This document shows, one piece after another, positions 8,476-30,436 of a stretch of 45,728 bases of DNA. The position numbers and the translations under genes are program-made. Each line of letters opens with the position of its first letter. The first letter of the stretch is position 1. Below the pieces are notes generated by a model. The model was not told where the DNA came from, ran no database searches, and saw only the letters and a program-made list of their open reading frames with translations. Source of the stretch: Sciscionella sediminilitoris (GTDB lineage: Bacteria; Actinomycetota; Actinomycetes; Mycobacteriales; Pseudonocardiaceae); NCBI RefSeq assembly GCF_000737195.2, contig NZ_JALM01000099.1:1-45728 (forward strand), read 5' to 3'.

Positions 8476-9801
8476 TCACCCTTGCACGTGGAACACCATC
8501 GATGAGTGCCCGATGCGGATCACATCGCCGTCCTGCAACTGCCATCCCTGCTGGACCGGTGTGTCGTTCACCGTCGTCCCGTTGGTCGAGTTCAGGTCGT
8601 CAAGTGTGGCACTCTGCCCATTCCAGTTGATCTCCAGGTGCCGCCTGGACACCCCGGTGTCCGGGAGCCGGAAGTCCGCGTCCTGGCCGCGGCCGACGAC
8701 ATTGCTGCCCTGACGCAGTGCGTGACTGCGATTCGTACCGTCAGTGAGCTGCACCGATGCCGCGAGCGGGCGACCACCGGGCATCGGGGGCTGCTGCACC
8801 GGCGGCTGCTGCGGGGCACCCATCGGCGCGCCGTAAGCCTGGTTCGGGTCCATCCCCGGCTGGCCACCGGGCGGGGTGCCGTACTGCTGCGGCACCGGTC
8901 CCGACGGCGGCTGGCCGTAGCCCTGGTCGTAACCGCCCTGCGGGGGCTGGCCGTACGGGTCGAACCCGCCCTGCGGGGGCTGCTGGCCATAGGGGTCGTA
9001 CCCACCGCCCTGGGGTGGCTGCTGGCCGTAGGGGTCGTAGCCCTGCGGGGCCTGCTGGCCGCCGTAGGGGTCGTAACCGGGCTGCTGGCCGTAGCCCTGG
9101 TCGTAACCGCCCTGCGGGGGCTGCTGGCCGTACGGGTCGTAGCCACCGCCCTGGGGAGGCTGCTGGCCGCCGTACGGGTCGTAGCCGGGCTGCTGGCCGT
9201 AGCCCTGGTCGTAGCCCTGCTGAGGTTGCTGCTGGCCGTACGGGTCGTAGCCGGGCTGCTGACCGTACCCCTGGTCGTAACCGTACTGACCCTGCTGCCC
9301 GTACGGGTCATAGCCGGGCTGCTGACCGTACGGGTCGCCTGGATACTGGCCGGGAGGCTGGCTCATGGATCGGTCCTCTGCTCGTCGGGATGGTTCCGCC
9401 CGTTCCCCCGGCGGCGCGGCGTCGGGGTCGACGGACGATTCCGTACGGAATTGTCCGGTGTGTAGTGTCTCTGAGCGCTCTATCGAGACTACGACGTCAC
9501 CGTATGTCTGATAGCCCCGTTCCGCGAGATGTTCCGCGAGATACGTGGCCAACTCAATGCAGATCCGTCGTTCGTCCTCGTCACCGCCCGCGAGGCGCTT
9601 GTGGTCGGCGGGTCCGAGCTGGACCGCGAAGACGTTCGGGGCGAGCAGGTGGCCGCCCGCGAGCCGCTGCACCTTACTCTCCGCCTCACGCTCAAGGTGC
9701 TGCCGAAGCTCGGTCGGAACCACCTTGCCGCCGAACACGCGCGCGAAGCCCTGCTCGACGGCCGACTCCAGCCGTCTCTCGAACCGGTCCGCACGCCCCA
9801 C
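8476..9801 (-). CDS. fhaA: FHA domain protein FhaA (DUF3662 plus FHA)
   Basis: Cytoplasmic adaptor that binds phosphorylated partners of PknB; in mycobacteria the FHA domain binds the MviN pseudokinase domain (family knowledge). Residues 1-120 form the DUF3662 domain ([11 protein letters not shown] start). Residues about 145-335 are a low-complexity tract of repeated [13 protein letters not shown] units. Residues about 350-441 are the FHA domain with [20 protein letters not shown] and DLNSTNGT. The DNA behind the linker (8880-9350) is a set of degenerate tandem repeats and so is prone to length change. The GTG start fits the family N-terminus. It heads the operon and is divergent from the tRNA-Leu gene. 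Confidence 0.95.
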
Positions 9802-9911
9802 GCCCCACTCCCTTCACCTGACACTCCATCCGTGATTTTAACGATCCGACCAACCGGGTGGGGGTGGGATCATCGGCGTTCCCCCTTAGTGCTACTGTTT
9901 CCTCGTCGCTC
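9802..9911. promoter_or_regulatory. Divergent promoter region between fhaA and tRNA-Leu
   Basis: This 110-base gap must hold the promoter of the long fhaA-pknB operon (leftward) and that of the tRNA gene (rightward). It contains an A/T-richer patch (9836-9842) and GC-rich runs around 9858-9866. No consensus -35/-10 pair stands out with confidence. Assignment rests on position only. Confidence 0.5.
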
Positions 9912-9994
9912 GGGCGAGTGGCGGAATGGCAGACGCGCACGGTTCAGGTCCGTGTGTCCGAAAGGACGTGGGGGTTCAACTCCCCCCTCGCCCA
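9912..9994 (+). tRNA. tRNA-Leu (anticodon CAG)
   Basis: Acceptor arms GGGCGAG (9912-9918) and CTCGCCC (9987-9993) pair perfectly and are followed by discriminator A. The anticodon stem CACGG/CCGTG encloses the seven-base loop TTCAGGT, so the anticodon is CAG. A long variable arm (class II) and a T-loop with GGTTCAACTCC complete the cloverleaf. The CCA end is not fully encoded (ACCC). A tRNA-Leu next to fhaA is also found in mycobacteria. The accessory island starts just downstream, though no attachment-site duplication was seen. Confidence 0.95.
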
Positions 9995-10012
9995 CCCGAT
10001 TGGCCGGGGTGT

Positions 10013-10072
10013 GCCCACGGAAAACGTGGGCCACCATCGGCTGGTGATTGTTTATGGGGGCCTAGCCCCCAT
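10013..10072 (+). terminator. Two hairpins downstream of tRNA-Leu
   Basis: Two perfect inverted repeats lie in series. GCCCACG-gaaaa-CGTGGGC spans 10013-10031. ATGGGGGC-cta-GCCCCCAT spans 10054-10072. Neither is followed by a T-run, so they may be weak or factor-dependent terminators or processing structures for the tRNA transcript. The function is inferred from position. Confidence 0.5.
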
Positions 10073-10125
10073 GCCCCCTAGGTGCGGGCTTCTCTTCTTG
10101 ACTGCGTGGTTTCGTTGGGGTTTGA

Positions 10126-10187
10126 CCAGCGCGGCTTGGGGTTCTTTGAGGTTGGGCCAGCGCTGCCTTGGGTTCGTTGAGGTTGTG
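10126..10187 (+). repeat. Two-copy 31-bp imperfect tandem repeat
   Basis: Positions 10126-10156 and 10157-10187 are adjacent 31-base units that start CCAGCGC and end GAGGTTG plus two bases. They differ at only a few positions. A partial related unit (TTTCGTTGGGGTTTGA, about 10110-10125) precedes them. The gap between the tRNA and the next gene (9995-10259) contains only these repeats and the two hairpins, with no gene. Confidence 0.75.
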
Positions 10188-10259
10188 CGCGGCTCGGTAG
10201 TGGTGCTTTCGCCCGGTTGTCGGACGCGCCCACTCGATCAGGTGTCGTAACTTGGCTAT

Positions 10260-11006
10260 GTGTCCTTGCCGATACTGCACGCGTTCATCGACGAATCCGG
10301 GCAGCGGGCACACACACCGGCATCCAGTGACCACTTCGTCATGAGCGCGGTCGTGATCCCCGACGAAGAGCTCGCCAGATCACAGGACCTGCTCGCAGAG
10401 CTCCGGCAAGATCTGGGGCGCAATCCTGGCGACACGCTGCACTGGAAGAACATCCAAGGACACTCGCAACGGTTGCATCTGGCGAAAACACTCGCCGCCC
10501 AACCCTGGCTGACAGTGTCCTCGGTGATCGTCTGCAAGCGACATCTGAACGGCCCGCTGCTCGACGAGGACCCCGCCTACCTGTTGACACTTCGATACCT
10601 GTTGGAGCGATTGTCGTGGATAGCCCGCGAACGAGGCCGGCTACTCCGCTACACGCTGGCGCACATAGTGCGGTTCAAGACCTCCAGCCTCCGAGCGTAC
10701 GAGGCGGAATTGCGCGCCGAGGAGGAGTGTCAGATCGCCTGGCCACACCTCGATCCACGCGGCGGACACCTCGACCAGCCATCCCGCGTAGAACAACTGC
10801 AGTTGGCCGATGCCATCGCATCCGCCACCGGTGCGGCGTTCAATCGGGACAGGTTCGGTTACACCGAACAGCGTTATCTTCACGAGCTCCAGTCGATCGT
10901 CTATCGGCGCGGAGCGGGAGCGAATGCGCTCACCTCGTACGGCCTGAAGATGCACCCTTGGCATGAAACGGCTAGAGCCGCCTACCCGTGGGTGGCGGCT
11001 CTATAG
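10260..11006 (+). CDS. DUF3800 domain protein
   Basis: A 248-residue soluble protein of the DUF3800 type. The N-terminus carries the hallmark HAFIDESGQ (DESG at 11-14), followed by FVMSAVVIPDEE and a conserved central region with HWKN. DUF3800 proteins are predicted to have an RNase H-like fold and often sit in mobile or defence neighbourhoods, but their reaction is unproven (family knowledge). The start is taken as GTG 10260 because it gives the family N-terminus; an ATG two bases upstream is out of frame. It precedes the methyltransferase operon by 178 bases in the same direction. Its base composition is slightly less GC-rich than its neighbours. A role in the downstream system is conjecture. 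Confidence 0.75.
   Translation: MSLPILHAFIDESGQRAHTPASSDHFVMSAVVIPDEELARSQDLLAELRQDLGRNPGDTLHWKNIQGHSQRLHLAKTLAAQPWLTVSSVIVCKRHLNGPLLDEDPAYLLTLRYLLERLSWIARERGRLLRYTLAHIVRFKTSSLRAYEAELRAEEECQIAWPHLDPRGGHLDQPSRVEQLQLADAIASATGAAFNRDRFGYTEQRYLHELQSIVYRRGAGANALTSYGLKMHPWHETARAAYPWVAAL
10973..11003 (+). terminator. Strong hairpin over the last codons of the DUF3800 gene
   Basis: TAGAGCCGCC (10973-10982) and GGCGGCTCTA (10994-11003) are perfect inverse complements, with a short inner ACC/GGT extension. The structure ends at the base before the TAG stop codon, so it encodes the last residues of the protein. There is no T-tract, so it may be a transcript-end stabiliser or a weak terminator isolating this gene from the operon that follows. 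Confidence 0.6.
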
Positions 11007-11184
11007 CGTACGTCGACCGGCTGTGCCGCAATCGCGGGTGCTGATGTTTCCACCAGCAGACGATCATCCGTACATGTCTAGGCTAGCAGCACCCTGTCGG
11101 CGCGGCAACCAACCGGCGACTGTTCCTCGCTCTGTCGGTGGGTGGCCATAGGGTGGGCACTGACTCGGTGCGGGAGGAGGCAGC

Positions 11185-12489
11185 GTGGGTGCTTGGCGGC
11201 CGGTGCAGTATCTCGGCAGCAAGCTGCGGACGATCGAACACATCACCGCGGCCGTCGATGAGCTCGGTGCGCCCACGACGGTCTGGGAGCCGTTCACGGG
11301 CTCGACGGTGGTCGCCCAGGCGCTCGCGCAGCACGGCAACCGGGTGGTGGCCGGGGACGCCCTCGCGTCGAGCTCGCTGTTCGCGACCGCGGTGCTCGGT
11401 GTCGGCAGAACACGAACCACGCGGATCGGTGCGCTCGCCGAACAGGCCCTCGCGGCGGTCCAGATCCCGGAGGAGTTCGGGGGCTGGCTCAGCAGAGAGG
11501 ACTCGGCGCTCGCCGCCCAGGATGGGCCCGAGCTGCTGCGCATCGGCGCCGAGCTGCCCCAGCGCTGGCGGGTCACCGGCGCCGATTCCGCGCTCGCCGC
11601 CCTGTTCACCCGGATCGACACCGCCGCCGAACACGCCGAGCACACCGGAACGGGGCTGCTGAGCGCCACCTACGCGGGCACCTACTTCGGGCTACGCCAG
11701 GCACTCGCCCTGGAAGCACTGCGCGCGGCGATCGGCGAGGTCACCGAACCCGGCGGCTGGGCGCACTCCTGCCTGTGCACCGCGCTGTGCCACGCCGCGT
11801 CCACCGCCGTGTTCTCGCCGGGCAAGCACTTCGCCCAGCCGCACCGCATCCGGGAGGGCAAGAACCTGGGGTTCCACGCGAAACGGGCGCTCGCCGACCG
11901 GAGCGTGGACATCGGCGCACGGTTCCTGGACGCGGCACGCACCCTGGAGCAGGTGGCCGCCACGGGCACCGAAGGGCACCGCGCGCATCAGGCCCGGGTC
12001 GAGGAGGTCACCGCGGACGAGCTGCGTGCCTGGGGGGTGCGCGTGGTCTACGCGGACCCGCCGTATACCGCGCAGCAGTACAGCCGCTTCTACCACCTGC
12101 TGGAGACCCTGGTCACCGCCGTCCCGCCGAAGCTGCAGACCAAGAACGGGCAGGTGACCCGCGGTCTCTACCCGGAGGGCCGGTACCTCTCGCCGTACTG
12201 CTCGCGCACCAAGGCGCCCGGCGCGATCAGCGAACTCGCCCGCACCACGGCGAAAGCGGGGGCGCACCTGCTGCTCAGCTACTCCACCCGCGGCGGCCCG
12301 AGCACCGGCAACGCGCGTTCGGTCACCCTGCCCGAACTGGTCCGGCGCGTCGAGGAGGTGTTCGGGGCGGATAACGTGACGGTGCGGCCACTGGAACTGC
12401 GCTACCGCCAGTTCAACCGGACCGATGCCGAGGTCACCGGCCGCAACGACCCGGAATACCTCGTGCTCGGGAGGGCCAGTGCTTGCTAG
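11185..12489 (+). CDS. D12-class N6-adenine DNA methyltransferase 1
   Basis: Adenine-specific DNA methyltransferase of 434 residues. It begins with the D12/FokI-type signature VQYLGSKLRTIEHI (about residues 7-20), has SAM-binding motif I VWEPFTGST (33-41) and catalytic motif IV ADPPYTAQQYSRFYHL (DPPY at 291-294). The GTG start follows a GGAGGAGG-type ribosome site. It heads a five-gene operon and overlaps the next gene by 11 bases. A second separate methyltransferase of the same class follows. Each may protect one strand of an asymmetric site, as the two halves of M.FokI do; that is inference. The host-protection role follows from the adjacent restriction genes. Confidence 0.9.
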   Translation: MGAWRPVQYLGSKLRTIEHITAAVDELGAPTTVWEPFTGSTVVAQALAQHGNRVVAGDALASSSLFATAVLGVGRTRTTRIGALAEQALAAVQIPEEFGGWLSREDSALAAQDGPELLRIGAELPQRWRVTGADSALAALFTRIDTAAEHAEHTGTGLLSATYAGTYFGLRQALALEALRAAIGEVTEPGGWAHSCLCTALCHAASTAVFSPGKHFAQPHRIREGKNLGFHAKRALADRSVDIGARFLDAARTLEQVAATGTEGHRAHQARVEEVTADELRAWGVRVVYADPPYTAQQYSRFYHLLETLVTAVPPKLQTKNGQVTRGLYPEGRYLSPYCSRTKAPGAISELARTTAKAGAHLLLSYSTRGGPSTGNARSVTLPELVRRVEEVFGADNVTVRPLELRYRQFNRTDAEVTGRNDPEYLVLGRASAC

Positions 12490-13804
12490 ATACCTCGGGA
12501 GCAAGCAGGCCATCATGCCCGAGCTGCTGGCCACCGTGGAGCAGCACGCCGAGCCCGGTGCGCACGTGGTGGACGCCTTCTCCGGAAGCCTCGCGGTCTC
12601 GCTCGGGCTCAAACAGGCCGGCTACCGGGTGACCGCGAACGACATCAACCTGTTCTCCGCGGTACTCGCCGAGGCGTACCTGCTGCCCGCCGAACCACCG
12701 GAGACGGACGCGCACGCGCTGCTGCCCGCCCGCCGGGTGAAGGAATACCTGCCGGTGGCACGCCGGATCACCAAGGAATTGTCCGGCGAACCCGGCTACG
12801 CCTTCCTCGGTGAACCGGAATGGCGCGCCCGCTACGAGAATTACCTCACCGTGCAGACGCATCTGGCGAACCTCACCCCTGGACAATTGCCCGCGCGGCA
12901 CCGCAAGACGCATTTCTTCGACACCTACTGCGAGCTCGGCAGCAATTCCGCCTACGAGAGCTCGCGCGGCGCGAAAGGTCACCGGCGGTTCTTCACCCCG
13001 GAGAACGCGCACCGCATCGATCTGGCGGTGAACCAGCTGCGGGCCTGGCGGCGCGCGGACCGGATCGACCGGCAGACCTACGCGCTGCTGCTGGCGAACC
13101 TGATGCGCGCCGTGGAGAAGGTCTCCAACACCCAGGGCACCTACCACGATTTTCCGCGCGACCGCTGGGATTCCCGGGCGCTTCGGCCGCTGCGTTTCGA
13201 TCCGCCCGCGCTCGATCCGTATCTGGGCGGCGTCGGCGGGCACACCGTCGGCGTGGAGCGCGACACCCTCGATTTCATCGGCGAGGTGGACGGGCATTCG
13301 GTGCTCTACATCGATCCGCCGTACAATTTCCGGCAGTACACCGCCTATTATTTCCTGCCGAACGTGCTGTGCCGGTACCCGGAAATGGACGATGTCGACG
13401 AATACTTCGCCAATGTGCGCTATGTTCGCGGGCAGAATCCGGAGGACGATTTCACCTCGACGTTCTGCAAACCGAAACGGTTCATCGCGGACATGCACGA
13501 GCTCATCGAGCGCGCGGCCTGCCGGACCGTGGTCATCAGCTATTTCACCGGGGCCAACCACTGGAGCTCGTTCGACACCGGACCGAACGACACCGGAAGG
13601 GAACTGCTCAGCGAACTGCTCAGCGGGGACCTGTTCGAACCGGGCAGCCTCTCGGTGCTCGAGGTGCCGCGGCGCAACTACGCCAGCTACGGCGGCTACA
13701 CCGCGCGCACCGTGCACGAACTGCTGCTGGTCGCCGAGAAGAAGCAAGGCGAGGAACGTGGAACCACGAAACGCGCTGCGCGACGGCTTCGCCAACTGGC
13801 TTGA
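12479..13804 (+). CDS. D12-class N6-adenine DNA methyltransferase 2
   Basis: A second, distinct adenine methyltransferase of 441 residues with LARYLGSKQAIMPEL at the N-terminus, motif I VVDAFSGSLA (about 31-40) and catalytic YIDPPYNFRQYTAYY (DPPY at 279-282). I chose GTG 12479, preceded by GGGAGG at about 12470-12475, because the protein then starts at the family N-terminus. An open frame runs further upstream but reads through methyltransferase 1 in another frame. The 3' end overlaps the next gene by 47 bases. The protein is only distantly similar to methyltransferase 1, so this is not a recent duplication. Confidence 0.9.
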   Translation: MLARYLGSKQAIMPELLATVEQHAEPGAHVVDAFSGSLAVSLGLKQAGYRVTANDINLFSAVLAEAYLLPAEPPETDAHALLPARRVKEYLPVARRITKELSGEPGYAFLGEPEWRARYENYLTVQTHLANLTPGQLPARHRKTHFFDTYCELGSNSAYESSRGAKGHRRFFTPENAHRIDLAVNQLRAWRRADRIDRQTYALLLANLMRAVEKVSNTQGTYHDFPRDRWDSRALRPLRFDPPALDPYLGGVGGHTVGVERDTLDFIGEVDGHSVLYIDPPYNFRQYTAYYFLPNVLCRYPEMDDVDEYFANVRYVRGQNPEDDFTSTFCKPKRFIADMHELIERAACRTVVISYFTGANHWSSFDTGPNDTGRELLSELLSGDLFEPGSLSVLEVPRRNYASYGGYTARTVHELLLVAEKKQGEERGTTKRAARRLRQLA

Positions 13805-14495
13805 GCACATCGTGCAAGGTTCGCGGGTGCGGACGGGGCGCAGGCTCGAACCGTTCGGCACCTCGCTGCGCAACAGTGCGCGCCTGGTGCCCTGGCTCGG
13901 CCAGACCGAACGCGGCGAGGCCCTGACGGTCACCGACCGGGTCCAGGCGGTCGCCGATATGCGCGCCATGCACCTGGTGCTCGGCGAATACCCGCGCCAC
14001 CGGCTCACCGCGCTGGGCTCCGCGACCCTGGCGCGCTGGCGGGAACTGGGCGTGGACAACGAATCTCGGGACGACGAGATCGCGCGCTGTGCGGCCCTTT
14101 TCGGCCAGGCAGCCCGGCTCGGTGTCGGCGAATACCTTGACATGTACGGATTCTGGTGCGAACTCACCGCCATCCGGCCCGCGGAACACTGGCTCGCGGA
14201 CGTGTTCAGCCTCTACCTGCCCTCCTATCTCGACCAGTCCGATCCGAGCGGGTACAACCCGTTCCGCGTACTCATCGCGGCGACCGGCGGGGAACTGGGC
14301 AGCGAACAGGATTGGCGCGACTGGGCCGAATCCGAGCGGGACGCGAACCTCGCCGCCTTCGTGAACCGGATCGAGAAGGCCCGCCCCGGCGGACGGCGGG
14401 CGTTCTGCCAGGGCATGGAGGCCTACCGGATCGCCCGGACCGAACCACGCGCGCTGCCGGGGAAACTCGCCGAATGGGGAATTCCGCATGCCTGA
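13758..14495 (+). CDS. Unrecognised 245-residue protein of the restriction operon
   Basis: I do not recognise a family. The protein is soluble, largely helical in appearance, rich in Arg, Trp and Glu, and has no signal peptide or membrane helix. Visible blocks include FANWLEHIVQGSRVRTGRR, MHLVLGEYPRHRLTALG and DVFSLYLPSYLDQSDPSGYN. The start is GTG 13758, preceded by GGCGAGGA at 13748-13755; the 47-base overlap with the methyltransferase leaves little choice. It ends eight bases inside the AAA+ gene. BsuMI and LlaI-type systems also carry an extra restriction ORF next to the McrB/McrC-like pair. By analogy this could supply target recognition, since the AAA+ protein has only a short N-terminal extension. 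Confidence 0.8.
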   Translation: MEPRNALRDGFANWLEHIVQGSRVRTGRRLEPFGTSLRNSARLVPWLGQTERGEALTVTDRVQAVADMRAMHLVLGEYPRHRLTALGSATLARWRELGVDNESRDDEIARCAALFGQAARLGVGEYLDMYGFWCELTAIRPAEHWLADVFSLYLPSYLDQSDPSGYNPFRVLIAATGGELGSEQDWRDWAESERDANLAAFVNRIEKARPGGRRAFCQGMEAYRIARTEPRALPGKLAEWGIPHA

Positions 14496-15630
14496 ACAGC
14501 TCGAGATGCGCCTTTCCGGGGCCGCCGCCCGCACCGCTGCGGCCGTCGACTGGGCACCGCCGCCCGATCACGGCTGGACCAGGGAGGTCGTCGAGCCCGC
14601 GTTGCGGTTCCCCGATCTGGACACGGTGACCGCGCGGGTGCACGAGGAACTGGCCCGCGGGCACGTGGTGCTGCCGGACGCGGACAACCTCGTGCGCCGC
14701 TGCGTGCACGCGCTACTGGTCGGGCACCTGGTGCTGCAGGGACCGCCGGGAACCGGGAAGACCACCTTCGCCCGCGCGCTCGCCGCCGGATTCCGCGCCG
14801 AGCTCAGCGAATCGACCGCGACCAGTGACTGGACCCCGTTCCACGTGGTCGGCGGCCTGCGCCCGGACAGCGGCGGCGGATTCAGCGCCTCGCACGGGCA
14901 CGTCGTGGCGGCGGCACTGCGCTGCGCCGAATTAGTGCAGGCCGGGGGCGAGACCCAGGCGAACTGGTTACTGATCGACGAGTTCAACCGGGCGGATATC
15001 GACAAAGCGATCGGCTCCCTGTTCACCGTCCTCGCCAGCTGCGATGCGGATCATCTCCGGAAAACCCCGGTGGAGCTGTGGTTCGAGGCCGAGCCCGCGG
15101 CCCGCAAACTCTGGATTCCCGCGCGGTTCCGGATCATCGCGTCCATGAACGACCTGGACACCTACTTCGTGAACCGGATCTCGCAGGGGCTCACCCGCAG
15201 GTTCCAGTTCGTCACGGTCGGGGTGCCCGAGGAGACCGGGACCGCGGAACAACCGGTCACCGAGGAATTCCGGCAGGCCTACGCGAACGCGCACGACTGG
15301 CTGACCCGTACCTACGCGCTCGAGGTGCCCGCGGACACCGAATGGCTGGCCCGGCTGCAGTCCGTCGTGGACCGGCTGCGCCACCCGGAGAACGGGGCGA
15401 GCTGGCCGGTCGGCACCGCGCAGGTGGTGGATGTGCTGCGGGTGGTCCTGCTGCGGTTGGCAAGCGGGGCGCAGGTGTGGCCCGGGGTGGACGAGGCGAT
15501 CGCGGACCGGATGGTGCCGCAGATGGCCGGGATCGACGATGAACAGGCGAGCTCCTTCCTCGAGGTGTTCACCGCCCACGGACTGGCCACAGCGGCCCGC
15601 GAACTCCGGCATCTCATCGGCGCACCGTGA
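14488..15630 (+). CDS. McrB-like AAA+ NTPase, restriction subunit
   Basis: AAA+ motor of 380 residues in the McrB/MoxR branch. Walker A GPPGTGKT is at 85-92, Walker B LLIDEFNRAD at 161-170 and sensor 1 IIASMNDLDTYF around 217-228, followed by NRISQGLTRRFQF, which matches the McrB-type sensor and arginine region. McrB proteins hydrolyse GTP; whether this one uses GTP or ATP cannot be told from sequence. The N-terminal extension is about 80 residues, too short for a full DNA-recognition domain. Its stop overlaps the start of the nuclease gene by GTGA. It is expected to assemble as a ring with the next protein (family inference). Confidence 0.85.
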   Translation: MPEQLEMRLSGAAARTAAAVDWAPPPDHGWTREVVEPALRFPDLDTVTARVHEELARGHVVLPDADNLVRRCVHALLVGHLVLQGPPGTGKTTFARALAAGFRAELSESTATSDWTPFHVVGGLRPDSGGGFSASHGHVVAAALRCAELVQAGGETQANWLLIDEFNRADIDKAIGSLFTVLASCDADHLRKTPVELWFEAEPAARKLWIPARFRIIASMNDLDTYFVNRISQGLTRRFQFVTVGVPEETGTAEQPVTEEFRQAYANAHDWLTRTYALEVPADTEWLARLQSVVDRLRHPENGASWPVGTAQVVDVLRVVLLRLASGAQVWPGVDEAIADRMVPQMAGIDDEQASSFLEVFTAHGLATAARELRHLIGAP

Positions 15631-16892
15631 CCGTGGAGCCGGGCGCCACCCTGACCGAGGAGGGCAGGCTGGCCGCGATCGGGGCCAGCCTGCCGCTGCT
15701 CGGCCGGTATTTCGCCTCCGGCACCCAGCCGCTCGAACAGCGCGCCGCGCTCGGTTCCCGGGACCGGGGCGGGGACACCGAACTGACCGAGCTGCTCGCC
15801 GGACTGCGCCTGCGGGTCGCGCTCGCCGCCGCGCACCGGTTGCGCGAACTGCTCGACCGGATCGCCGCGGACAGCAGCTTCCGCTACCGGTTGCGCACCC
15901 TGGATCGGACCGGGGCGATCACCGGGCAGCTCGACGTGAACCGTTATCTCGCCCAGCTCGGCACCGGCGGGCACGGCAGCTTCCCGGTGCTCGAGGTGCA
16001 TCGCAGCGCGCACACCCCGGAGAACATTCTCGCCGCCTATGCCGCGCGGTGGCTGACGAACGAACTGCGCACCGCGCTCGCCGCCAGCGCGGCCGCCGAA
16101 GCCGGACCGGAACACGCGGCCGCCCGCTCCGCGATGCGCGCGCTCGGCGCACTGCTGCGGCTGCCCGAATTCGCCGCCTGCGTCCCCGAAGCCGCACGGG
16201 TGCGGCGCAAACACGGCGAGCGCGCGCTGCTCGGCACCGTGCGGCGCAGGCTGCGGCGGCGCGAGATCGCCAGCGGGGCACCGTATGCCGAGCTCGCCGA
16301 CTGGATCGAGCGGGTCATCGGCGGGGAACCGGTCGCGAGCGCGGGCGAGCTCGAATGGTCGTTCTACGGGGAACGTTTCGACACCAAGCTGTTCGAGCTG
16401 TGGTGCCTCCGGCTGCTCGCCACGGTCCTCGCGCGCGCACTCGGGATTCCGGAGCCGGACCCGGAAACGGGTTGGCGCACCGGGGATCCCGCCTATCTGC
16501 TCGGCGAGGTCGAGCTGTCCTTCCAGCGCTCGATTCCCGGCCGCGCGGCACGCTGGCTGCGCACCGGGAGCGGGCGGGCGCTCGGCGGGGTGCCCGATAT
16601 CGTCGCGCGGCACGGCGAGCGGATCAGCCTGATCGACCCGAAACTGCGCAGGCGGACCGGTCCGCCGACCGAGGAGCTGTACAAGATCCTCGGCTACTTC
16701 GAGAACTTCCGGCTCACCGAACGGCCGTGCGGGGCGATCCTCTACTACGCACCCGTTCCGGAACCCCTGCGCGAGTACCGGTACGCGCCCGAGGACGGCG
16801 AAGGAGCACTGTTCGCCATCGGCGTCGACCCGGCACGCCCGCGCGAGTCGGGCACCGCGCTCGTCCCGCTGGCGCAGGTCATTCTCGGCTAA
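15627..16892 (+). CDS. McrC-like/DUF2357-type PD-(D/E)XK nuclease
   Basis: Predicted nuclease of 421 residues. The N-terminal half is Arg/Leu/Ala-rich and helical. From about residue 250 the sequence follows the McrC/DUF2357 pattern: FDTKLFELWCLRLL, then GVPDIV (Asp324), LIDPK (Asp337, Lys339) and EELYKILGYFENF (Glu350, Lys353, Tyr357), the arrangement of a PD-(D/E)XK active site. The GTG start overlaps the AAA+ stop codon. It is the last gene of the operon and ends convergently with purC, the two stop codons sharing bases 16890-16891. Read with the AAA+ protein it forms an McrBC-like cleavage module. Confidence 0.75.
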   Translation: MTVEPGATLTEEGRLAAIGASLPLLGRYFASGTQPLEQRAALGSRDRGGDTELTELLAGLRLRVALAAAHRLRELLDRIAADSSFRYRLRTLDRTGAITGQLDVNRYLAQLGTGGHGSFPVLEVHRSAHTPENILAAYAARWLTNELRTALAASAAAEAGPEHAAARSAMRALGALLRLPEFAACVPEAARVRRKHGERALLGTVRRRLRRREIASGAPYAELADWIERVIGGEPVASAGELEWSFYGERFDTKLFELWCLRLLATVLARALGIPEPDPETGWRTGDPAYLLGEVELSFQRSIPGRAARWLRTGSGRALGGVPDIVARHGERISLIDPKLRRRTGPPTEELYKILGYFENFRLTERPCGAILYYAPVPEPLREYRYAPEDGEGALFAIGVDPARPRESGTALVPLAQVILG

Positions 16893-19167: not shown

Positions 19168-19737
19168 TCAGAGTTCGCGAATGATGCGGGCCGGGTTGCC
19201 GACCGCGAGCACATTGGCCGGTAGGTCCTTGGTGACCACCGATCCCGCACCGACCACGGCGTTCTCCCCGATGCGCACCCCGGGGCAGACGATGACCCCG
19301 CCACTGAGCCAGGCGTTGTCGCCGATGGTGATCGGTTCCCCGGCTTCCCATTTGGCGCGGCGCTGCGCCGGATCGAGCGGATGGGTCGGCGTGAGCAGCT
19401 GTACCCCGGGCCCGATCTGCACATCCGCGCCGATATTGATCTTCGCGACATCGAGGAAGGTCGCGCCGAAATTGACGAAGGTGCGCGCGCCGATGCTGAT
19501 CCGGTAGCCGTAGTCCACATAGAGCGGTGCCCGGATCTCCGCATCCTCGCCGAGAAAACCGAGCAGTTCGCGGAGAACGGTCTGGCGTTCCCCGGGATTC
19601 CCCGCCGGGCAGGTGTTGAACCGCTCGCTCAGCAGTTCCGCGCGGGCCCGATCGGCGGCGAGCTCGGGATCCTCGGCGAGATAGGGCTCACCGGCGAGCA
19701 TGCGTTCCTTCTGGCTGCTCAACTCGGCCGCAGCCAC
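19168..19737 (-). CDS. Maltose/galactoside-type sugar O-acetyltransferase (left-handed beta helix)
   Basis: Acetyl-CoA-dependent O-acetyltransferase of 189 residues in the Maa/LacA/NodL group. It has the N-terminal KERMLAGEPYLAEDPEL block, hexapeptide repeats and the catalytic PTHPLDP segment. NAWLSGGVIVCPGVRIGENAVVGAGSVV and GNPARIIREL close the fold. The chosen GTG start overlaps the end of the glycosyltransferase gene by 19 bases; a later ATG (MLAGEPY) is possible but would remove conserved residues. It is the last gene of the 26825-19168 operon. It is cytoplasmic, so it probably acts on a sugar precursor, unlike the membrane AlgJ-like protein. Confidence 0.88.
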   Translation of the reverse strand: MAAAELSSQKERMLAGEPYLAEDPELAADRARAELLSERFNTCPAGNPGERQTVLRELLGFLGEDAEIRAPLYVDYGYRISIGARTFVNFGATFLDVAKINIGADVQIGPGVQLLTPTHPLDPAQRRAKWEAGEPITIGDNAWLSGGVIVCPGVRIGENAVVGAGSVVTKDLPANVLAVGNPARIIREL

Positions 19738-22700
19738 AGGGTGAGCAGCCCCGGTTCGCTCGCCCTGGCGCGCGCGACGAGCGCATCCGGATCACCGGCC
19801 TCGGTTTCCGGGCCGCTCTCGGTGACCGGAATGGCCGCATAGCCCGCTTCCCGGTAACCGTGCAGCGCGGCGCGCGGGTCATCGCCGAGTTCCTCGATGG
19901 CCTCGGGGCTGAACTCGACCACCAGCTGCGGGCGGTCGCGCTGGATGAGCCCGGCGAGCCCGGCGAAGGCACGGTGGTCCCTGCCCTGCAGATCGGTCTT
20001 GATCACGTCGACCCGTCCGGCGAGCACGCGGGACTGAGCGTCGAGGCGAACCGCGGAAACCCGGGTGCCGCCTTCTCCGGTGTGCACCCGGATGTCGCCG
20101 CTGTTCTCGGCCTCGACGCGATCGATCCGCACACTCGTCTCGGTGTCCCAAGCGGCGAGTTCCAGTACCTCGACCGCGCTGGCCGCCTCCGCGGGCAGGT
20201 TAACCGCGAGATTTCGCCGCAGCAGCAAGGCATTCAGCGGATCGGCCTCGACGGCCACGATGCGCCGCACCGCTCCGCGCCTGCGTACGAGCGCGAGACT
20301 GTGGTATCCGACGTGCGCGCCGATATCGAGGAAAGCACCCTCGCCCATCAGCTCGGCCATCAGTTTCGCTTCGGCGGTCTCCCAGCTGCGGTGGTACCGC
20401 AACCAGGGCAGGATCACCGCATCCCGTGGCACGAGCAGATCACCGGCGTCACAGCGCACGACCTCGGTGCCGTCCGGAAGCGGGGCGTGGCGCAGCCGTG
20501 CGGCCTCGTCCGCCGCGGTGAGCCGCCGGTTGAGTTCGGCGATCTGGTACTCGTCGTTGTCCGAGCGCGCATCGCGTTCGGCGAACTGCCGGTTGATATC
20601 CGCGAAGGTGGCCCCGACTTCCTCGGCATTGCCCGCGAATCCGGTGCGCAGTTCATCGAGATCGCGTTCCAGATTGCCGATCCGCACGGCATTCCCCGGC
20701 GCCTCGGCACGCAGTTCCCGGTAGCCGGTGTGCAGATCATCGGTGAGCGCGGTCAGCCGGTCGGTGTTCGATCCGGTCTCATCCGCCTTCGCACGCAAGG
20801 AATCCACCGTCGCCTCGAGCCACTCGATGCGTTGCAGCAGCCGCCGTGCGGTGTCCTGGCCACCACTGGTGAGTTCGCCGAGCACGGCACGCTGGTGCAC
20901 GTCGTAGTGATCGAGCAGCCGCAGCATCGCCTTGCGCACGGCGGGGGCGAGCGGATTGCGCGCGCTCGTCCCTGGTTCGGCGCGCCAGTCCAGCGCGGCA
21001 CGCGCGGAATCCAGTGGCGCCAAGGGATCCGGGATCGGTTCCGGCTCCGGCACGGGCTCCCGCCTGGCCAGCCAGGCGGCGTGCGCGGCGCGCAGCTGTT
21101 CGCCGACCCAGGTGGCGGCCGCGGTCATGGAGTGCTCGCGCAGCATGTACTCCCGCGCGGCCCGGGCCCGGCGCGCGGCCTCGGCCGGGTCGTCGGCGAT
21201 CCGGCGCATCGCCTCGGCGGCGGCGCGGATGTCCGGCTGCGCCCACAACGCGTCCTCGTGGTACGGGAAGCAGTCCTTGCCGACCGGAACCAGCGAATAG
21301 GGGATCGGCCACCCGGTCTTATCGTCCACGAACTCGGTCGTCGAAGAGTAATCCGTTGACACGACAGGGATTCCCATGACCATCGCCTGCGCAACGGTGA
21401 GCCCGAAGCCCTCACTGCGGTGCAGCGAGACATAGGCATCGCTGTCCGCGTACAGCGCCTGCAGGTCTTCCGGGGAGAGGTAGCGCTCGAGCAGCGTGAT
21501 CCGCTCGTCCCCGAGCACGGCCATCCGCAGCCGCTCCGCCGCGATCGGATGCAGATCCGGATTGATCGCCTTGAGCACCAGCCGCACGTCCTCGCGGTCC
21601 CCGAAGGCCTGCCGGAACGCATCCACCGCGCCCCAAGGGTTTTTGCGCTCGCCGACCGAGTTGAAGTCGAAGGCGAACAGGAATTGGGTGTATCCCTTGG
21701 TTTTCGGCTCCACGGAGGCGATCTCGCGCACCGGGGCGGGGAAGACCTTCACCGGCAGCGTGGTGTGCCGGCGGATCGCCCGCGCGCAGAACTCGCTGAC
21801 CGTCCAGATCTCGTCCACCAGTTCGAAGGCCGGATGCAGCCACTCCGGGAACTCCTCGAGCTCCCAGGCCCAGAACCCGATGCGGTAGCGGTCGGCGAAC
21901 ACCTCGGGATGCGCCTCGGCCATCACCTGGGTCTGGTCCGCGTTCACGCACAGCAGGCTCACCCCGTAGCGCGCCGCGCCCTCGGTCTCCGGGCGGGCGA
22001 GCGCGGTGCGGTTGGAGACCGCCTTCTCCTCGACGACCGAACTGATCGGAATCCCCGAGGCGGCGACCGCATCGTGCAGCAACCGCGCCATTTCCCCGAG
22101 TCCGAGCTCCGCGGTGAGGTAACCGAGCATGTTCACCCCGGGCCGCTTGTCCACCGCGACGGTCCGGGCTTCGGAGTGCGCGGGAAGGGCCCAGGAGGGC
22201 AGGCCGAACTCGGCCACCCCGGATTGCCCGCACCAGTACCGGAATCCGGCGTTGTCCTGCGCGTAGGGGCGCGGGAAGGCACGGCGCAGATCGGGCCGAC
22301 CGCTCCACACCGACATCAGCAGCCGGTTCAGCCCGCTGCGTTCCTGTGCCCGGTCCGCGGGTCCCGCGAGCCAGCGCGCGAAGGCGTCGGTGCCGTCGAA
22401 AGCGTGCGGTGGCACGGGTTCCACGGTTCGGGAACGCCGCGCGGAATCCGGGCGCTCCGCCTCGATCCACGCGCCGCGGAACAGCCTGCGCATAGCCGAG
22501 GTGATCGGAGTGCCGTCGGCCAGCCGTGCGAATCCATAGGGGATCGCCTCGAGGGTTTCCGCGTAGCCATTGGCTTTCAGCGCCGCACCATAGGAATCGC
22601 AGAGCTCGCGCAGGATCGGGTTCGCCGAGAGCACCACCCGAGGCTCGCGCGCGCAGTGATAGCTCAGCTGCCAGGGCCGCTCCGGGCGGTACCCGCTGAA

Positions 22701-23429
22701 GTGGAAGAACCGCAGCGGAGCGCCGTTCGCCAGGATCGCGCCGTCCAGGCCCTTCTCCAGCTCGCGCTCGTGCGCGTTCCAGTAGGCGATGTTGAAGCCG
22801 GGGTCGCGCAGCACCGTGTGCCGGAACAACGCGGGAACCTGGTCGACCCAGCGCTGATCGGTGAACAGCTGCTCCTCGGGGGCCGCGATCGCGTCCGTGC
22901 GCAGCCGTTCCGCCCAGAAATCCAGGAACGGTCCCGCTCCCGGTCCGCAGGCGAGGAAACCGAGGTTGAAGATCCCGGTTCCCATGATCACGCCCTCACC
23001 CGGTTCCTTGCCATCGCGCGGCATCGGGCCGAGCACGTGCGGGGTGAGCACCAGATCGTGCTCGATCGCGAGCTCGGTGAGTTCGGGCATCGGCGCGTAC
23101 ACCGTGATGTCCGGGTCCAGGAACACCGCGACCGTGCTGTGTTCGAGCAGCACCCGCAGCAGAAACGGCTTCACCGCGGTGGCCAGTTCGGTCACCGAGT
23201 AGGCGGTCGCCATGCGCAGGTATTCGTCTGGCTCGATGCCGAAGGCCGCGGGCCCGAGAATGCGCGCGCCCGCCTCGTACTCGTCGCGCTCGGCGGGTGC
23301 GTCGATGACCGTGATCCAGAACTCGTCACCGGGGTGAGTGGCGAGATAGCTGGCGGCGAGCACGCGTGCCGCGGGCAGATAGTTGGCCGCGACGACGGTG
23401 CACGCCGTTCGCCGCGCCGCCTCAGCCAT
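19719..23429 (-). CDS. Multidomain glycosyltransferase fused to FkbM-type methyltransferase
   Basis: A 1236-residue cytoplasmic protein with three apparent catalytic parts. Residues 1-300 resemble a GT-A glycosyltransferase, with VVAANYLPAARVLAASYL and the metal-binding DPD at 105-107. Residues about 430-790 form a GT4-like domain with GYLTAELGLGEMAR, GFWAWELEEFP and EGFGLTVAQAM. Residues about 830-980 are charged and helical, probably coiled coil. The last 250 residues are an FkbM-type SAM methyltransferase with FLDIGAHVGYHSLAL (near 1033) and VDVIKTDLQGRDHRAF. The ATG start overlaps the upstream gene by eight bases. Such fusions are known in glycan clusters; this one probably builds and methyl-caps a surface glycan (inference). 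Confidence 0.85.
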   Translation of the reverse strand: MAEAARRTACTVVAANYLPAARVLAASYLATHPGDEFWITVIDAPAERDEYEAGARILGPAAFGIEPDEYLRMATAYSVTELATAVKPFLLRVLLEHSTVAVFLDPDITVYAPMPELTELAIEHDLVLTPHVLGPMPRDGKEPGEGVIMGTGIFNLGFLACGPGAGPFLDFWAERLRTDAIAAPEEQLFTDQRWVDQVPALFRHTVLRDPGFNIAYWNAHERELEKGLDGAILANGAPLRFFHFSGYRPERPWQLSYHCAREPRVVLSANPILRELCDSYGAALKANGYAETLEAIPYGFARLADGTPITSAMRRLFRGAWIEAERPDSARRSRTVEPVPPHAFDGTDAFARWLAGPADRAQERSGLNRLLMSVWSGRPDLRRAFPRPYAQDNAGFRYWCGQSGVAEFGLPSWALPAHSEARTVAVDKRPGVNMLGYLTAELGLGEMARLLHDAVAASGIPISSVVEEKAVSNRTALARPETEGAARYGVSLLCVNADQTQVMAEAHPEVFADRYRIGFWAWELEEFPEWLHPAFELVDEIWTVSEFCARAIRRHTTLPVKVFPAPVREIASVEPKTKGYTQFLFAFDFNSVGERKNPWGAVDAFRQAFGDREDVRLVLKAINPDLHPIAAERLRMAVLGDERITLLERYLSPEDLQALYADSDAYVSLHRSEGFGLTVAQAMVMGIPVVSTDYSSTTEFVDDKTGWPIPYSLVPVGKDCFPYHEDALWAQPDIRAAAEAMRRIADDPAEAARRARAAREYMLREHSMTAAATWVGEQLRAAHAAWLARREPVPEPEPIPDPLAPLDSARAALDWRAEPGTSARNPLAPAVRKAMLRLLDHYDVHQRAVLGELTSGGQDTARRLLQRIEWLEATVDSLRAKADETGSNTDRLTALTDDLHTGYRELRAEAPGNAVRIGNLERDLDELRTGFAGNAEEVGATFADINRQFAERDARSDNDEYQIAELNRRLTAADEAARLRHAPLPDGTEVVRCDAGDLLVPRDAVILPWLRYHRSWETAEAKLMAELMGEGAFLDIGAHVGYHSLALVRRRGAVRRIVAVEADPLNALLLRRNLAVNLPAEAASAVEVLELAAWDTETSVRIDRVEAENSGDIRVHTGEGGTRVSAVRLDAQSRVLAGRVDVIKTDLQGRDHRAFAGLAGLIQRDRPQLVVEFSPEAIEELGDDPRAALHGYREAGYAAIPVTESGPETEAGDPDALVARARASEPGLLTLWLRPS

Positions 23430-28134: not shown

Positions 28135-29844
28135 ATGGTTTCCATCAGCGATATCCGGAAGTGGAACGCCGACCAACTCGAACAGGCCCGCAGCGAAGTC
28201 CAGCGCGAACTTCAAATACTGACCAGCGAGGGCGATGACTTCGCCGGGGCGAAAATCAGCGAAGGCGACTGGACCGGCAAGAGTTCCGCCAGCGCGATGG
28301 CCGTGCACGACAAACTCGTCCAACAAGGGGACCGCCACGCGGCAGGGCTGGCCGCGATCGTCAAAGGCCTGGCGCAGGCATCCGATGCGGTGAGGCCGCT
28401 GCCACGACAGATCAACGAAGCCGAAGAGTTCGGTCGCAAATACGGCTTCGAGGTCGGCGAGAACGGCGAAGTCACCGACACCTTCGCCGGGAAACCACTC
28501 CCGCCGGACATGCACCCCGAAGACCGCGAAGGCGCCAAGCAGGAGATCACCGCCAAGCTCGAGCAAGTCGTGCGCACCGCAACCGATATCGATGCCGATC
28601 TGGCGGGTGTGTTCGGCAAGGCGGGCGCAGGTCAATACGGAGTCGGGCAAACGGGGAACCTCACCACCGCCGCCGCTGCGGGTACCGCCGCAATGGCGCT
28701 CACTACTCCCGATCCGCCAGCAGGTGGCACGGCAACTCAGAACGCCGCGTGGTGGGGCACCTTGTCCAAAGCCGAGCAGGGCGCGGTCATCGGAGCGACC
28801 CCGGACAAGATCGGAAACCTGAACGGGCTTCCCGCCGCCGCACGTTCGAAGGCAAACATGAACCGTATCCCGGCGATGCGAGCACGGCTGTTGCAGCAAC
28901 TCAAGAACAGTGGCAGCGTTGACGAGATCAAAAACATCGAGGCAAAGCTCAAGTCGCTCGACAAGATCAAAGAAACCATGCACCGTGGCAACCGATCGCT
29001 GCTTGTGCTCGATGACACCCATCCGCGAATGGAAGCAGCGATCGGAATCGGCGACATTGACGGCGCGAAGAACGTCAACGTCTTCGCCCCCGGTTTTACC
29101 ACCACAGTCGACGGCTCCCTTGAGGGATATGACGCCAACATGGCGGATCTCGTGCAGAAGGAGAACAGCATCAACCAGGCTGTCGGAGACGACAGTACGA
29201 ACGCGGCCGTAACCTGGATCGGGTATCAAGCGCCCCAAGTCGATGAGATCGCGAGCAGTCAGTCAGTGGCGCTTCCGCAAGCGGCACAGCACGGCGGCGA
29301 CAAGCTTGCAGGGTTCCTCAACGGAGTGGGCGCGGCACACGAAACCAACAACGCACCACTACACCTCACTGCGCTAGGACACTCGTATGGATCCACCACG
29401 ACCGGCGAAGCGCTCGGCCACAACACACCCGTCAACGATTCCGTCCTCTTCGGATCACCTGGCGAAGGCTGGAATAAGCCCCATGTCAACGGTGGACATA
29501 TCTACAGCGAAGAGGCTGCAACCGACTACGTACCCGCAGCCGGCCGGACATCAGATCTGTTCCAGTTGCCCACAGGCCACGGTGGGCCACTTGGACCTGA
29601 CACCTATAGTGATCCCAATATTCAACACCTGAGCACCAACATCAAAGGCAGTCCGACTGGAGGAGATCCGTTGGCCCCCGCGTTTGGTCATAGCGAATAT
29701 CTACACGACGGGACCACCAGCCAATACAATATCGCGGCCGTTGGATCTGGCCACCCTGATCTTGCCATGCCCGACACACAGGCTGATCGAGCGATACGCG
29801 ACGGCAGCTATTTCATACCCGGACTTGCGTTTGGAACACCGTAA
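28135..29844 (+). CDS. DUF1023-type alpha/beta hydrolase with WXG-like N-terminus
   Basis: A 569-residue protein. Residues 1-100 are helical with a DWTGKSSASA turn, like WXG100/LXG modules. The C-terminal 260 residues match the DUF1023 alpha/beta hydrolase type: FAPGFTTTVDGSLEGY, VTWIGYQAPQ and the nucleophile elbow LGHSYGSTT (GHSYGS at 415-420). HLSTNIKGSPTGGDPLAP and FGHSEYL lie where the acid and His are expected. The true substrate of DUF1023 proteins is unknown. There is no signal peptide, and the pairing with a small WXG-like gene suggests type VII export (inference). No secretion-machine genes are present here. Confidence 0.8.
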   Translation: MVSISDIRKWNADQLEQARSEVQRELQILTSEGDDFAGAKISEGDWTGKSSASAMAVHDKLVQQGDRHAAGLAAIVKGLAQASDAVRPLPRQINEAEEFGRKYGFEVGENGEVTDTFAGKPLPPDMHPEDREGAKQEITAKLEQVVRTATDIDADLAGVFGKAGAGQYGVGQTGNLTTAAAAGTAAMALTTPDPPAGGTATQNAAWWGTLSKAEQGAVIGATPDKIGNLNGLPAAARSKANMNRIPAMRARLLQQLKNSGSVDEIKNIEAKLKSLDKIKETMHRGNRSLLVLDDTHPRMEAAIGIGDIDGAKNVNVFAPGFTTTVDGSLEGYDANMADLVQKENSINQAVGDDSTNAAVTWIGYQAPQVDEIASSQSVALPQAAQHGGDKLAGFLNGVGAAHETNNAPLHLTALGHSYGSTTTGEALGHNTPVNDSVLFGSPGEGWNKPHVNGGHIYSEEAATDYVPAAGRTSDLFQLPTGHGGPLGPDTYSDPNIQHLSTNIKGSPTGGDPLAPAFGHSEYLHDGTTSQYNIAAVGSGHPDLAMPDTQADRAIRDGSYFIPGLAFGTP

Positions 29845-29877
29845 CCATGAAAACAACAAAACCATGAAAACAACAAA
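29844..29877 (+). repeat. 17-bp tandem duplication spanning the lipoprotein start
   Basis: ACCATGAAAACAACAAA is repeated exactly at 29844-29860 and 29861-29877. Each copy holds an ATG. The first ATG (29847) gives only MKTTKP before TGA at 29865-29867, which overlaps the second ATG (29864), the real lipoprotein start. The hydrolase stop TAA ends at 29844. Confidence 0.9.
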
Positions 29878-30436
29878 AATTTCCTTGGCTACCGTATCCG
29901 CCGCAGCGATGCTGTCCGTGTCTGCGTGCGGTGCTGTAACCGATCAGCCAGCTTCGGAGGGGGTCGACATGAACAATCCAAGCGCAGAGCACGACCGGCT
30001 CTCGAAGATGCCGACTATTGACGAGGCAGTACAACGTTACGAGCAGATGGAACAAGCGATCAAGCAGCAGCTGACGCAATCGATACCGAGCCTCGCCAAT
30101 TGGGAAGACACCCACGACAGTGTGGGTCGGGCGGGATGCCTGAATGGTGATGGCGAGACGCACAACCTGTCGAATCAAATCGTTCGCGTGCAGTTACCCG
30201 ATCAGCAGTTCGAACAGGCTGTCAAAGCGGTCGGCGAAGTCGTGAAGCAATACGGATTCAACGAGAAACCCACTCAATTTCGGAATTCGCCGGGCAAGCA
30301 CTTCACCTCATTCCAGAACCCAGCCGATTCCAGCTCAGTCTTCTTCGCGGCGAGTAAACGTGTTGTTGTACAAGTCAAGGTAGGGTGTCACCTGACGGTC
30401 GACGCCAAAAAGCGCGGCCAGCCGCGAGAATCGTAA
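29864..30436 (+). CDS. LppA-like lipoprotein
   Basis: A 190-residue exported lipoprotein. The signal peptide MKTTKISLATVSAAAMLSVS ends in lipobox VSAC (Cys22). The mature part contains MPTIDEAVQRYEQMEQAI, NWEDTHDSVGRAGC and a C-terminal segment with KVGCHL, the layout of LppA-type lipoproteins whose function is unknown. The start is ATG 29864; the upstream open frame reads the hydrolase gene out of frame. The gene lies 19 bases after the hydrolase and is probably co-transcribed. Its GC content is visibly lower than that of the flanking housekeeping genes. Confidence 0.82.
   Translation: MKTTKISLATVSAAAMLSVSACGAVTDQPASEGVDMNNPSAEHDRLSKMPTIDEAVQRYEQMEQAIKQQLTQSIPSLANWEDTHDSVGRAGCLNGDGETHNLSNQIVRVQLPDQQFEQAVKAVGEVVKQYGFNEKPTQFRNSPGKHFTSFQNPADSSSVFFAASKRVVVQVKVGCHLTVDAKKRGQPRES

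Follow-up and report, generated by a model that had tools for sequence, protein, structure and literature searches.

The five-gene operon

In this study we analysed a window of 45,728 nucleotides from Sciscionella sediminilitoris (the whole of the stretch numbered here, contig NZ_JALM01000099.1, from a source genome of 215 contigs) and examined five genes at positions 11185-16892. They probably form a restriction-modification operon of the McrBC-like type II kind, located on the chromosome, whose recognition subunit is detached. The genes, called M1, M2, mid, AAA and nuc, all lie on the + strand. As a preliminary description of this DNA had claimed, the coordinates of the open reading frames (ORFs) overlap at every junction, by 11, 47, 8 and 4 bases. 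AAA starts with ATG and the four others with GTG, and purine-rich stretches lie upstream of the GTG of M1 (GGAGGAGG), M2 (GGGAGGG) and mid (AAGGCGAGG).

The first two genes encode separate D12-class N6-adenine DNA methyltransferases, again as described previously. M1 (11185..12489, 434 amino acids (aa)) matches the Pfam family MethyltransfD12 (PF02086) at 9.3e-13 and carries an FTGS motif and a catalytic DPPY motif at residues 291-294 (12055..12066, + strand). M2 (12479..13804, 441 aa) matches the same family at 1.3e-20, and its catalytic DPPY occupies residues 279-282 (13313..13324, + strand); the first motif of the pair reads FTGS or FSGS. The two are similar to each other only locally (30% across about 70 residues). 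Separate counterparts of M1 and of M2 are present in two further loci, L015 (E. coli plasmid pTE_T100_3; M1 27%, M2 31%) and L036 (IMG/VR contig 3300048833_000622; M1 32%, 1.6e-45; M2 31%, 1.3e-69), and for this reason we regard M1/M2 as an old unit. Retention of such a diverged pair is what would be expected of one enzyme per strand of an asymmetric site. In a comparison with one FokI-type fused enzyme, which addressed whether the pair might correspond to the two halves of a split FokI/LlaI-type methyltransferase, M1 and M2 of the window both matched its N-terminal half (2e-6 and 1e-20), and the best match of either to its C-terminal half had an E value of 0.19. M1 of L015 matched both halves (N-terminal 8e-10, C-terminal 4.7e-5).

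AAA (14488..15630, 380 aa) was identified as an McrB-type AAA+ motor without a long N-terminal domain, in line with the preliminary description. It matches AAA_5 at 1.8e-18, and the top five matches of its family profile in the PDB were all McrB structures (2.1e-16 to 2.1e-13). The Walker A motif GPPGTGKT lies at residues 85-92 (14740..14763, + strand), preceded by just 84 residues, and DEF and MNDLD (the NxxD signature) are also present.

The last gene, nuc (15627..16892, 421 aa), is nearly invisible to family databases. Pfam returned only PDDEXK_1 at 0.23, which is chance level, PADLOC and NCBIfam returned no match, and the family profile found nothing in the PDB at E<=1. Profile-profile comparison of 11 nuc relatives with 13 McrC-family proteins, in contrast, gave a probability of 97.1% (E 7.3e-11, 270 columns) with the PD...DxK motifs aligned; the controls reached 0.7% (reversed sequence) and 1.0% (the two LlaJI nucleases of L015 and L036). 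The presumed catalytic motif is P323-D324 ... D337-P-K339 (16593..16643, + strand); neither alignment shows any variation at D324, D337 or K339, and P323 is not conserved in L014, the Cryobacterium locus. None of the nine nuc-family members tested matched the Pfam McrC family PF10117, although the L014 nuclease reached 6.9e-4, short of the cut-off. RE_LlaJI (PF09563) matched neither nuc nor anything else in the genome, while it does match in B. subtilis. By these profiles nuc is an McrC-type nuclease and not a member of the LlaJI family; the PD-(D/E)XK assignment of the preliminary description therefore holds, and its LlaJI/BsuMI-type nuclease does not. The gene thus exposes a blind spot of annotation.

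The enzyme families and the gene order bear out the general proposal of an McrBC-like type II restriction-modification system. In such a system M1 and M2 would each methylate one adenine, on opposite strands of an asymmetric site. Hydrolysis of nucleoside triphosphates (NTPs) would power the McrB-type motor ring and so activate the McrC-type nuclease, which would cut incoming DNA and may thereby defend the cell against phages.

To assess whether the operon is maintained, we compared it with that of Sciscionella marina DSM 45152 (G669), the closest relative found, whose DNA is 94-96% identical across the shared region. All five proteins are kept at the same site with 92-98% identity. The ratios of nonsynonymous to synonymous substitution (dN/dS) between the two species were 0.18 for M1, 0.07 for M2, 0.27 for mid, 0.10 for AAA and 0.24 for nuc, which indicates purifying selection on all five genes. 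The value for mid is the highest, with the dN of nuc slightly above that of mid, but reading mid in its two other frames gave 1.09 and 1.98, and we conclude that mid is a real gene. A decayed or inactive relic would suit the great rarity of the system, mid being present in only two genomes among 390 from the family; it is nevertheless very improbable in view of the intact motifs and of dN/dS values of 0.07-0.27 across all five genes. The count of two excludes four weak mid matches (8e-5 to 8e-4) from elsewhere in the family, which were rejected; these lie in ORFs of 687-763 aa which by eye resemble flavin adenine dinucleotide-dependent oxygenases.

Changing partners of the motor and nuclease

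We then asked where else the motor-nuclease pair has relatives. Scanning genome contigs from 84,980 species with a pattern gave 22 matches, 12 of them encoding relatives, at 11 loci; seven of 72,556 plasmid records held relatives as well. A profile search of 392 genomes of the phylum returned the window's own pair only, and three nuclease matches in a search of the class (E 7e-4 to 8e-4) were taken as chance. Within the sensitivity of these searches, the motor-nuclease family looks rare. Viral contigs yielded no relative of mid or nuc.

The loci fall into four classes. Class A comprises the nine MTaX1-linked systems (L012, L013, L020-L024, L026 and L027, from Arthrobacter-type plasmids, Rhodococcus, Gordonia and two actinobacterial metagenome-assembled genomes). 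Their parts match those of the window, with motors 40-43% and nucleases 34-39% identical (eight loci, L024 left out). They differ in having two N6_N4-type methyltransferases of about 600 aa, an MTaX1-type (PF20296) protein in the position of mid, an assignment supported by Pfam in L012 and L021 and by BLAST in the remaining loci, and a nuclease extension of about 240 aa. In L024 (Gordonia otitidis, 9857-11922) the nuclease is found in two ORFs, owing to a frameshift or a sequencing error. Class B (L011 and L018) has a single N6_N4 methyltransferase and a motor with about 200-220 extra N-terminal residues; its single enzyme suggests a symmetric target site, and the sites of the other classes may be asymmetric. 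Class C consists of the window and its S. marina counterpart (L017), with two D12 enzymes and the orphan mid, and class D of L014, with two N6_N4 enzymes and a 389-aa orphan. The C-terminal nuclease extension occurs in A and B and is missing in C.

In trees built without L024, classes B and C formed one clade (motor 99%, nuclease 99%, joined 100%). Their motors, 53-58% identical, are thus sisters that have switched both the type of methyltransferase and the recognition part. Class A formed a single clade in the motor tree (94%) and in the joined tree (80%), but not in that of the nuclease, where L021 fell outside. The window-type motor-nuclease pair is thus found again in three more combinations, each with another methyltransferase set and another recognition part. 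As to conserved five-gene synteny in Actinobacteria, for which the preliminary description had proposed a search, the whole set is kept in S. marina, and other actinobacterial relatives pair the motor and nuclease with other partners.

The middle protein and the length of the motor

The third gene, mid (13758..14495, + strand, 245 aa), encodes a proposed stand-alone target-recognition subunit; the proposal draws on its position, on its complementarity with the missing N-terminal domain of the motor, and on its dN/dS. It matches no family in Pfam (at E<=1), PADLOC or NCBIfam, and the MTaX1 domain (PF20296) has no Pfam match in it. No relative of mid was detected beyond Sciscionella. Two aminotransferases in the PDB (E 0.48 and 0.91) were disregarded. 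Profile comparison with MTaX1 (0.4%), LlaI (0.1%), the class B N-terminal parts and the Cryobacterium protein gave probabilities of 0.1-0.4%. An alignment by eye to the motor N-termini of L015 and L036 was rejected, as 35 of 300 and 234 of 300 shuffles were as good or better and hhalign gave 0.1%. The sequence of mid does not by itself establish a recognition role.

The evidence for such a role comes instead from comparison of motors. We assembled by hand, through annotation and BLAST, 19 methyltransferase-linked loci, which cover the window family, LlaI, systems of LlaJI type and two other McrBC-like ones. Contig ends truncate L019 and L025, which were left out along with L016, the same stretch as L017; L024, absent from the trees because its nuclease is in two ORFs, was included. 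The sequence upstream of the L036 motor was limited to 689 bases, and the L038 motor is a weak assignment (McrB E 0.007, no AAA family). Fourteen motors have fewer than 90 residues before Walker A, and directly upstream of every one of them (14/14) stands a separate ORF that is not a methyltransferase, overlapping the motor gene by 4-11 bases in 13 cases and lying at 187 bases from it in LlaI. Motors with 246-323 residues before Walker A have no such ORF (0/5).

Part of the set came from plasmid records, of which 48 match M2 and 14 match M1. Eight were examined (H9, H10, H25, H26, H30, H31, H33 and H36, with H4-H6 left out), and an McrBC-like module was present in four (L015, L033, L038 and L040) and absent from four. 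Among them L040, on Pimelobacter simplex plasmid pA-N39 (4763-11626), carries in one run a D12 enzyme, a 712-aa Eco57I-like methyltransferase, a 187-aa orphan, AAA, McrC and a protein with an endonuclease VII domain.

R1.LlaJI is described as the sole specificity subunit of its system, and the N-terminal 160 residues of McrB as specifying DNA binding (PMC1459862). By analogy, mid occupies the position that the recognition domain has in McrB and R1.LlaJI. Because short motors have an upstream ORF and long ones have none, our preferred reading of mid is a McrB recognition domain that has become a separate protein, and it probably directs the motor to the DNA site to be attacked. It belongs, moreover, to the restriction half of the operon: in L021 the methyltransferases lie after the nuclease on the opposite strand, yet the overlap between the mid and motor genes is kept.

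Several observations weigh against this interpretation of the operon. The 14 loci with short motors were picked by hand and come from only about five lineages; by lineage the comparison is about five versus three, so the counts are not independent. nuc is linked to McrC by profile comparison and not by Pfam, and mid has no detectable homology to known recognition domains or to other mid proteins. The latter is unsurprising, since McrB-type N-terminal domains themselves differ in fold, with DUF3578, YTH and B3 among those described (PMC7680126). The predicted isoelectric point (pI) of mid is 6.25, that is, not basic; the mid-position proteins of LlaI and Cryobacterium are acidic too, and the eight MTaX1-type proteins that are in frame are basic (pI 9.0-9.7). 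Finally, among the McrB controls described below, that of L082 is short ahead of Walker A (which starts at residue 109), with a transposase upstream and no candidate recognition gene; it either runs counter to the rule of complementarity or represents a gene that has been interrupted.

The same properties of mid could be explained if recognition resided in AAA or nuc of the same restriction-modification system and mid served in regulation or assembly, for instance as a controller delaying restriction. The non-basic pI, the lack of a recognisable DNA-binding domain and the 84 residues that AAA retains before Walker A are all compatible with this, and expression control has been reported for LlaI and LlaJI. 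A regulator would, however, leave unexplained why motors with long N-termini have no separate ORF and vice versa, and a gene downstream of both methyltransferase genes that overlaps the motor gene is not where an early regulator would be expected. We therefore consider this explanation unlikely and continue to read mid as a recognition subunit.

A modification-dependent type IV McrBC system, which destroys foreign modified DNA, might also lie next to two unrelated methyltransferases. Indeed, nuc groups with McrC and AAA with McrB, and in the order 18 of 200 genomes have McrC-family (PF10117) genes, which are thus not rare there. But type IV McrBC has no linked cognate methyltransferase, whereas the window has two in the same overlapping run; the five genes stay together, and methyltransferases accompany the pair in all 13 relative loci whose motor or nuclease is not cut by a contig end. 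As a control, we examined 20 PF10117 loci of the same order. McrB was found in 15, the other five being missed by a crude ORF filter, and in 14 of the 15 Walker A lies at residue 436 or beyond, unlike in AAA; these positions use longest-ORF starts and are upper bounds. Not all controls are proven type IV, as L063, L067 and L069 have an ORF of about 1300 aa with a PPY-like motif directly upstream. On balance a type IV system is improbable here.

Genomic setting and known systems

In both Sciscionella species the operon is flanked by a tRNA-Leu/DUF3800 segment on one side and a purC-like gene on the other. Its presence at the same place implies that their common ancestor probably already carried it. 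The tRNA-Leu has no exact repeat of at least 12 bases elsewhere in the window (the longest is 11), so an origin as an integrative element is not supported. The DUF3800 gene (10260-11006, + strand, Pfam 2.7e-8) lies directly upstream of the operon; in the S. marina copy (L017, 4689-5403) about 70 bases are gone and the frame is broken. Further upstream, at 8476-9801 on the - strand, is a protein which by eye is FHA-domain-like, with a Gly/Gln/Tyr-rich repeat tract (441 aa versus 419 aa in S. marina). Downstream, a 1236-aa protein (19719-23429, - strand) was read by eye as having glycosyltransferase-like domains and a C-terminal FkbM-type methyltransferase. The G+C minimum of the profile (0.578 at 29001-30000) falls within 28135-30436 (+ strand), a region surrounding an alpha/beta-hydrolase-like and a lipoprotein-like ORF, both recognised by eye.

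With regard to known systems, LlaI (Lactococcus pTR2030) and the LlaI-like locus L033 on pUCCL629C share the gene order of methyltransferase, small ORF (252 aa in L033), 337-aa McrB-like AAA protein and nuclease, and the LlaI-like methylase is annotated as an adenine enzyme, as in the window. The LlaI methyltransferase is a single fused enzyme, unlike the two of the window, and the BsuMI methyltransferases are of C5-cytosine type. The LlaI nuclease is not matched by the nuc profile (0.1%), and its mid protein is not detectably related to that of the window (0.1%). In L033 (6538-7317) the methyltransferase is annotated in fragments and the three restriction ORFs are whole.

LlaI and BsuMI are reported as three-ORF restriction cassettes whose McrB-like proteins are short, at 337 and 343 aa (PMC1459862). 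With LlaJI they are treated as a subfamily within the relatives of McrBC, one whose members cut DNA that is unmethylated and have paired type IIS methyltransferases (PMC2614495). In contrast to the genome of the window, that of Bacillus subtilis, the host of BsuMI, has a PF09563 match. LlaJI (Lactococcus pNP40) likewise combines two methyltransferases for an asymmetric site with an McrBC-like two-part nuclease, but its methyltransferases are of 5-methylcytosine type, where those of the window are both MethyltransfD12 with DPPY, and recognition lies inside R1 (585 aa). PcaI, an McrBC-like nuclease spared by its cognate methyltransferase, differs in having one Dcm-like methyltransferase, a DUF2357-annotated nuclease and, within its motor protein, a DNA-binding domain that is unrelated (PMC8989522). 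Several branches of McrB-like GTPases are also noted as associated with methyltransferases, their treatment being deferred to later papers (PMC11090510).

With paired methyltransferases, McrBC-like restriction genes and a three-ORF cassette with a short McrB, the window has the gene content of McrBC-like type II systems, and because such cassettes are known from LlaI and BsuMI we regard it as a variant of them. Two kinds of novelty suggested in the preliminary description are accordingly withdrawn. An extra restriction ORF beside a short McrB-like protein already exists in LlaI and BsuMI (PMC1459862) and in L033, and two D12 enzymes already stand beside an McrBC-like module in L015 and L036, the differences there being a PF09563 nuclease and a motor of 599 or 621 aa that has an N-terminal part of its own and is encoded convergently to the methyltransferases. 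The literature searched, with subscription papers and REBASE outside its scope, contained no account of two D12 enzymes with an McrC-type nuclease, and no mid-type protein described as a recognition subunit.

In summary, the comparisons point to an operon in which a motor and nuclease of a seemingly rare family would work with a separately encoded partner. We tentatively suggest, as an idea we do not yet favour outright, that the McrB-McrC pair is a shared motor-nuclease chassis on which separately encoded recognition subunits are swapped together with matching methyltransferases, much like type I HsdS, and that the Sciscionella mid is a new kind of site-recognition protein. By the same comparison, the third ORF found in LlaI and in BsuMI, given without a stated function in the section of PMC1459862 that describes it, may likewise be a detached McrB recognition domain. 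The operon offers a small, self-contained system for testing the idea of detached recognition: if it is true, swapping the 245-aa mid together with its methyltransferases should re-target an McrBC-type nuclease.

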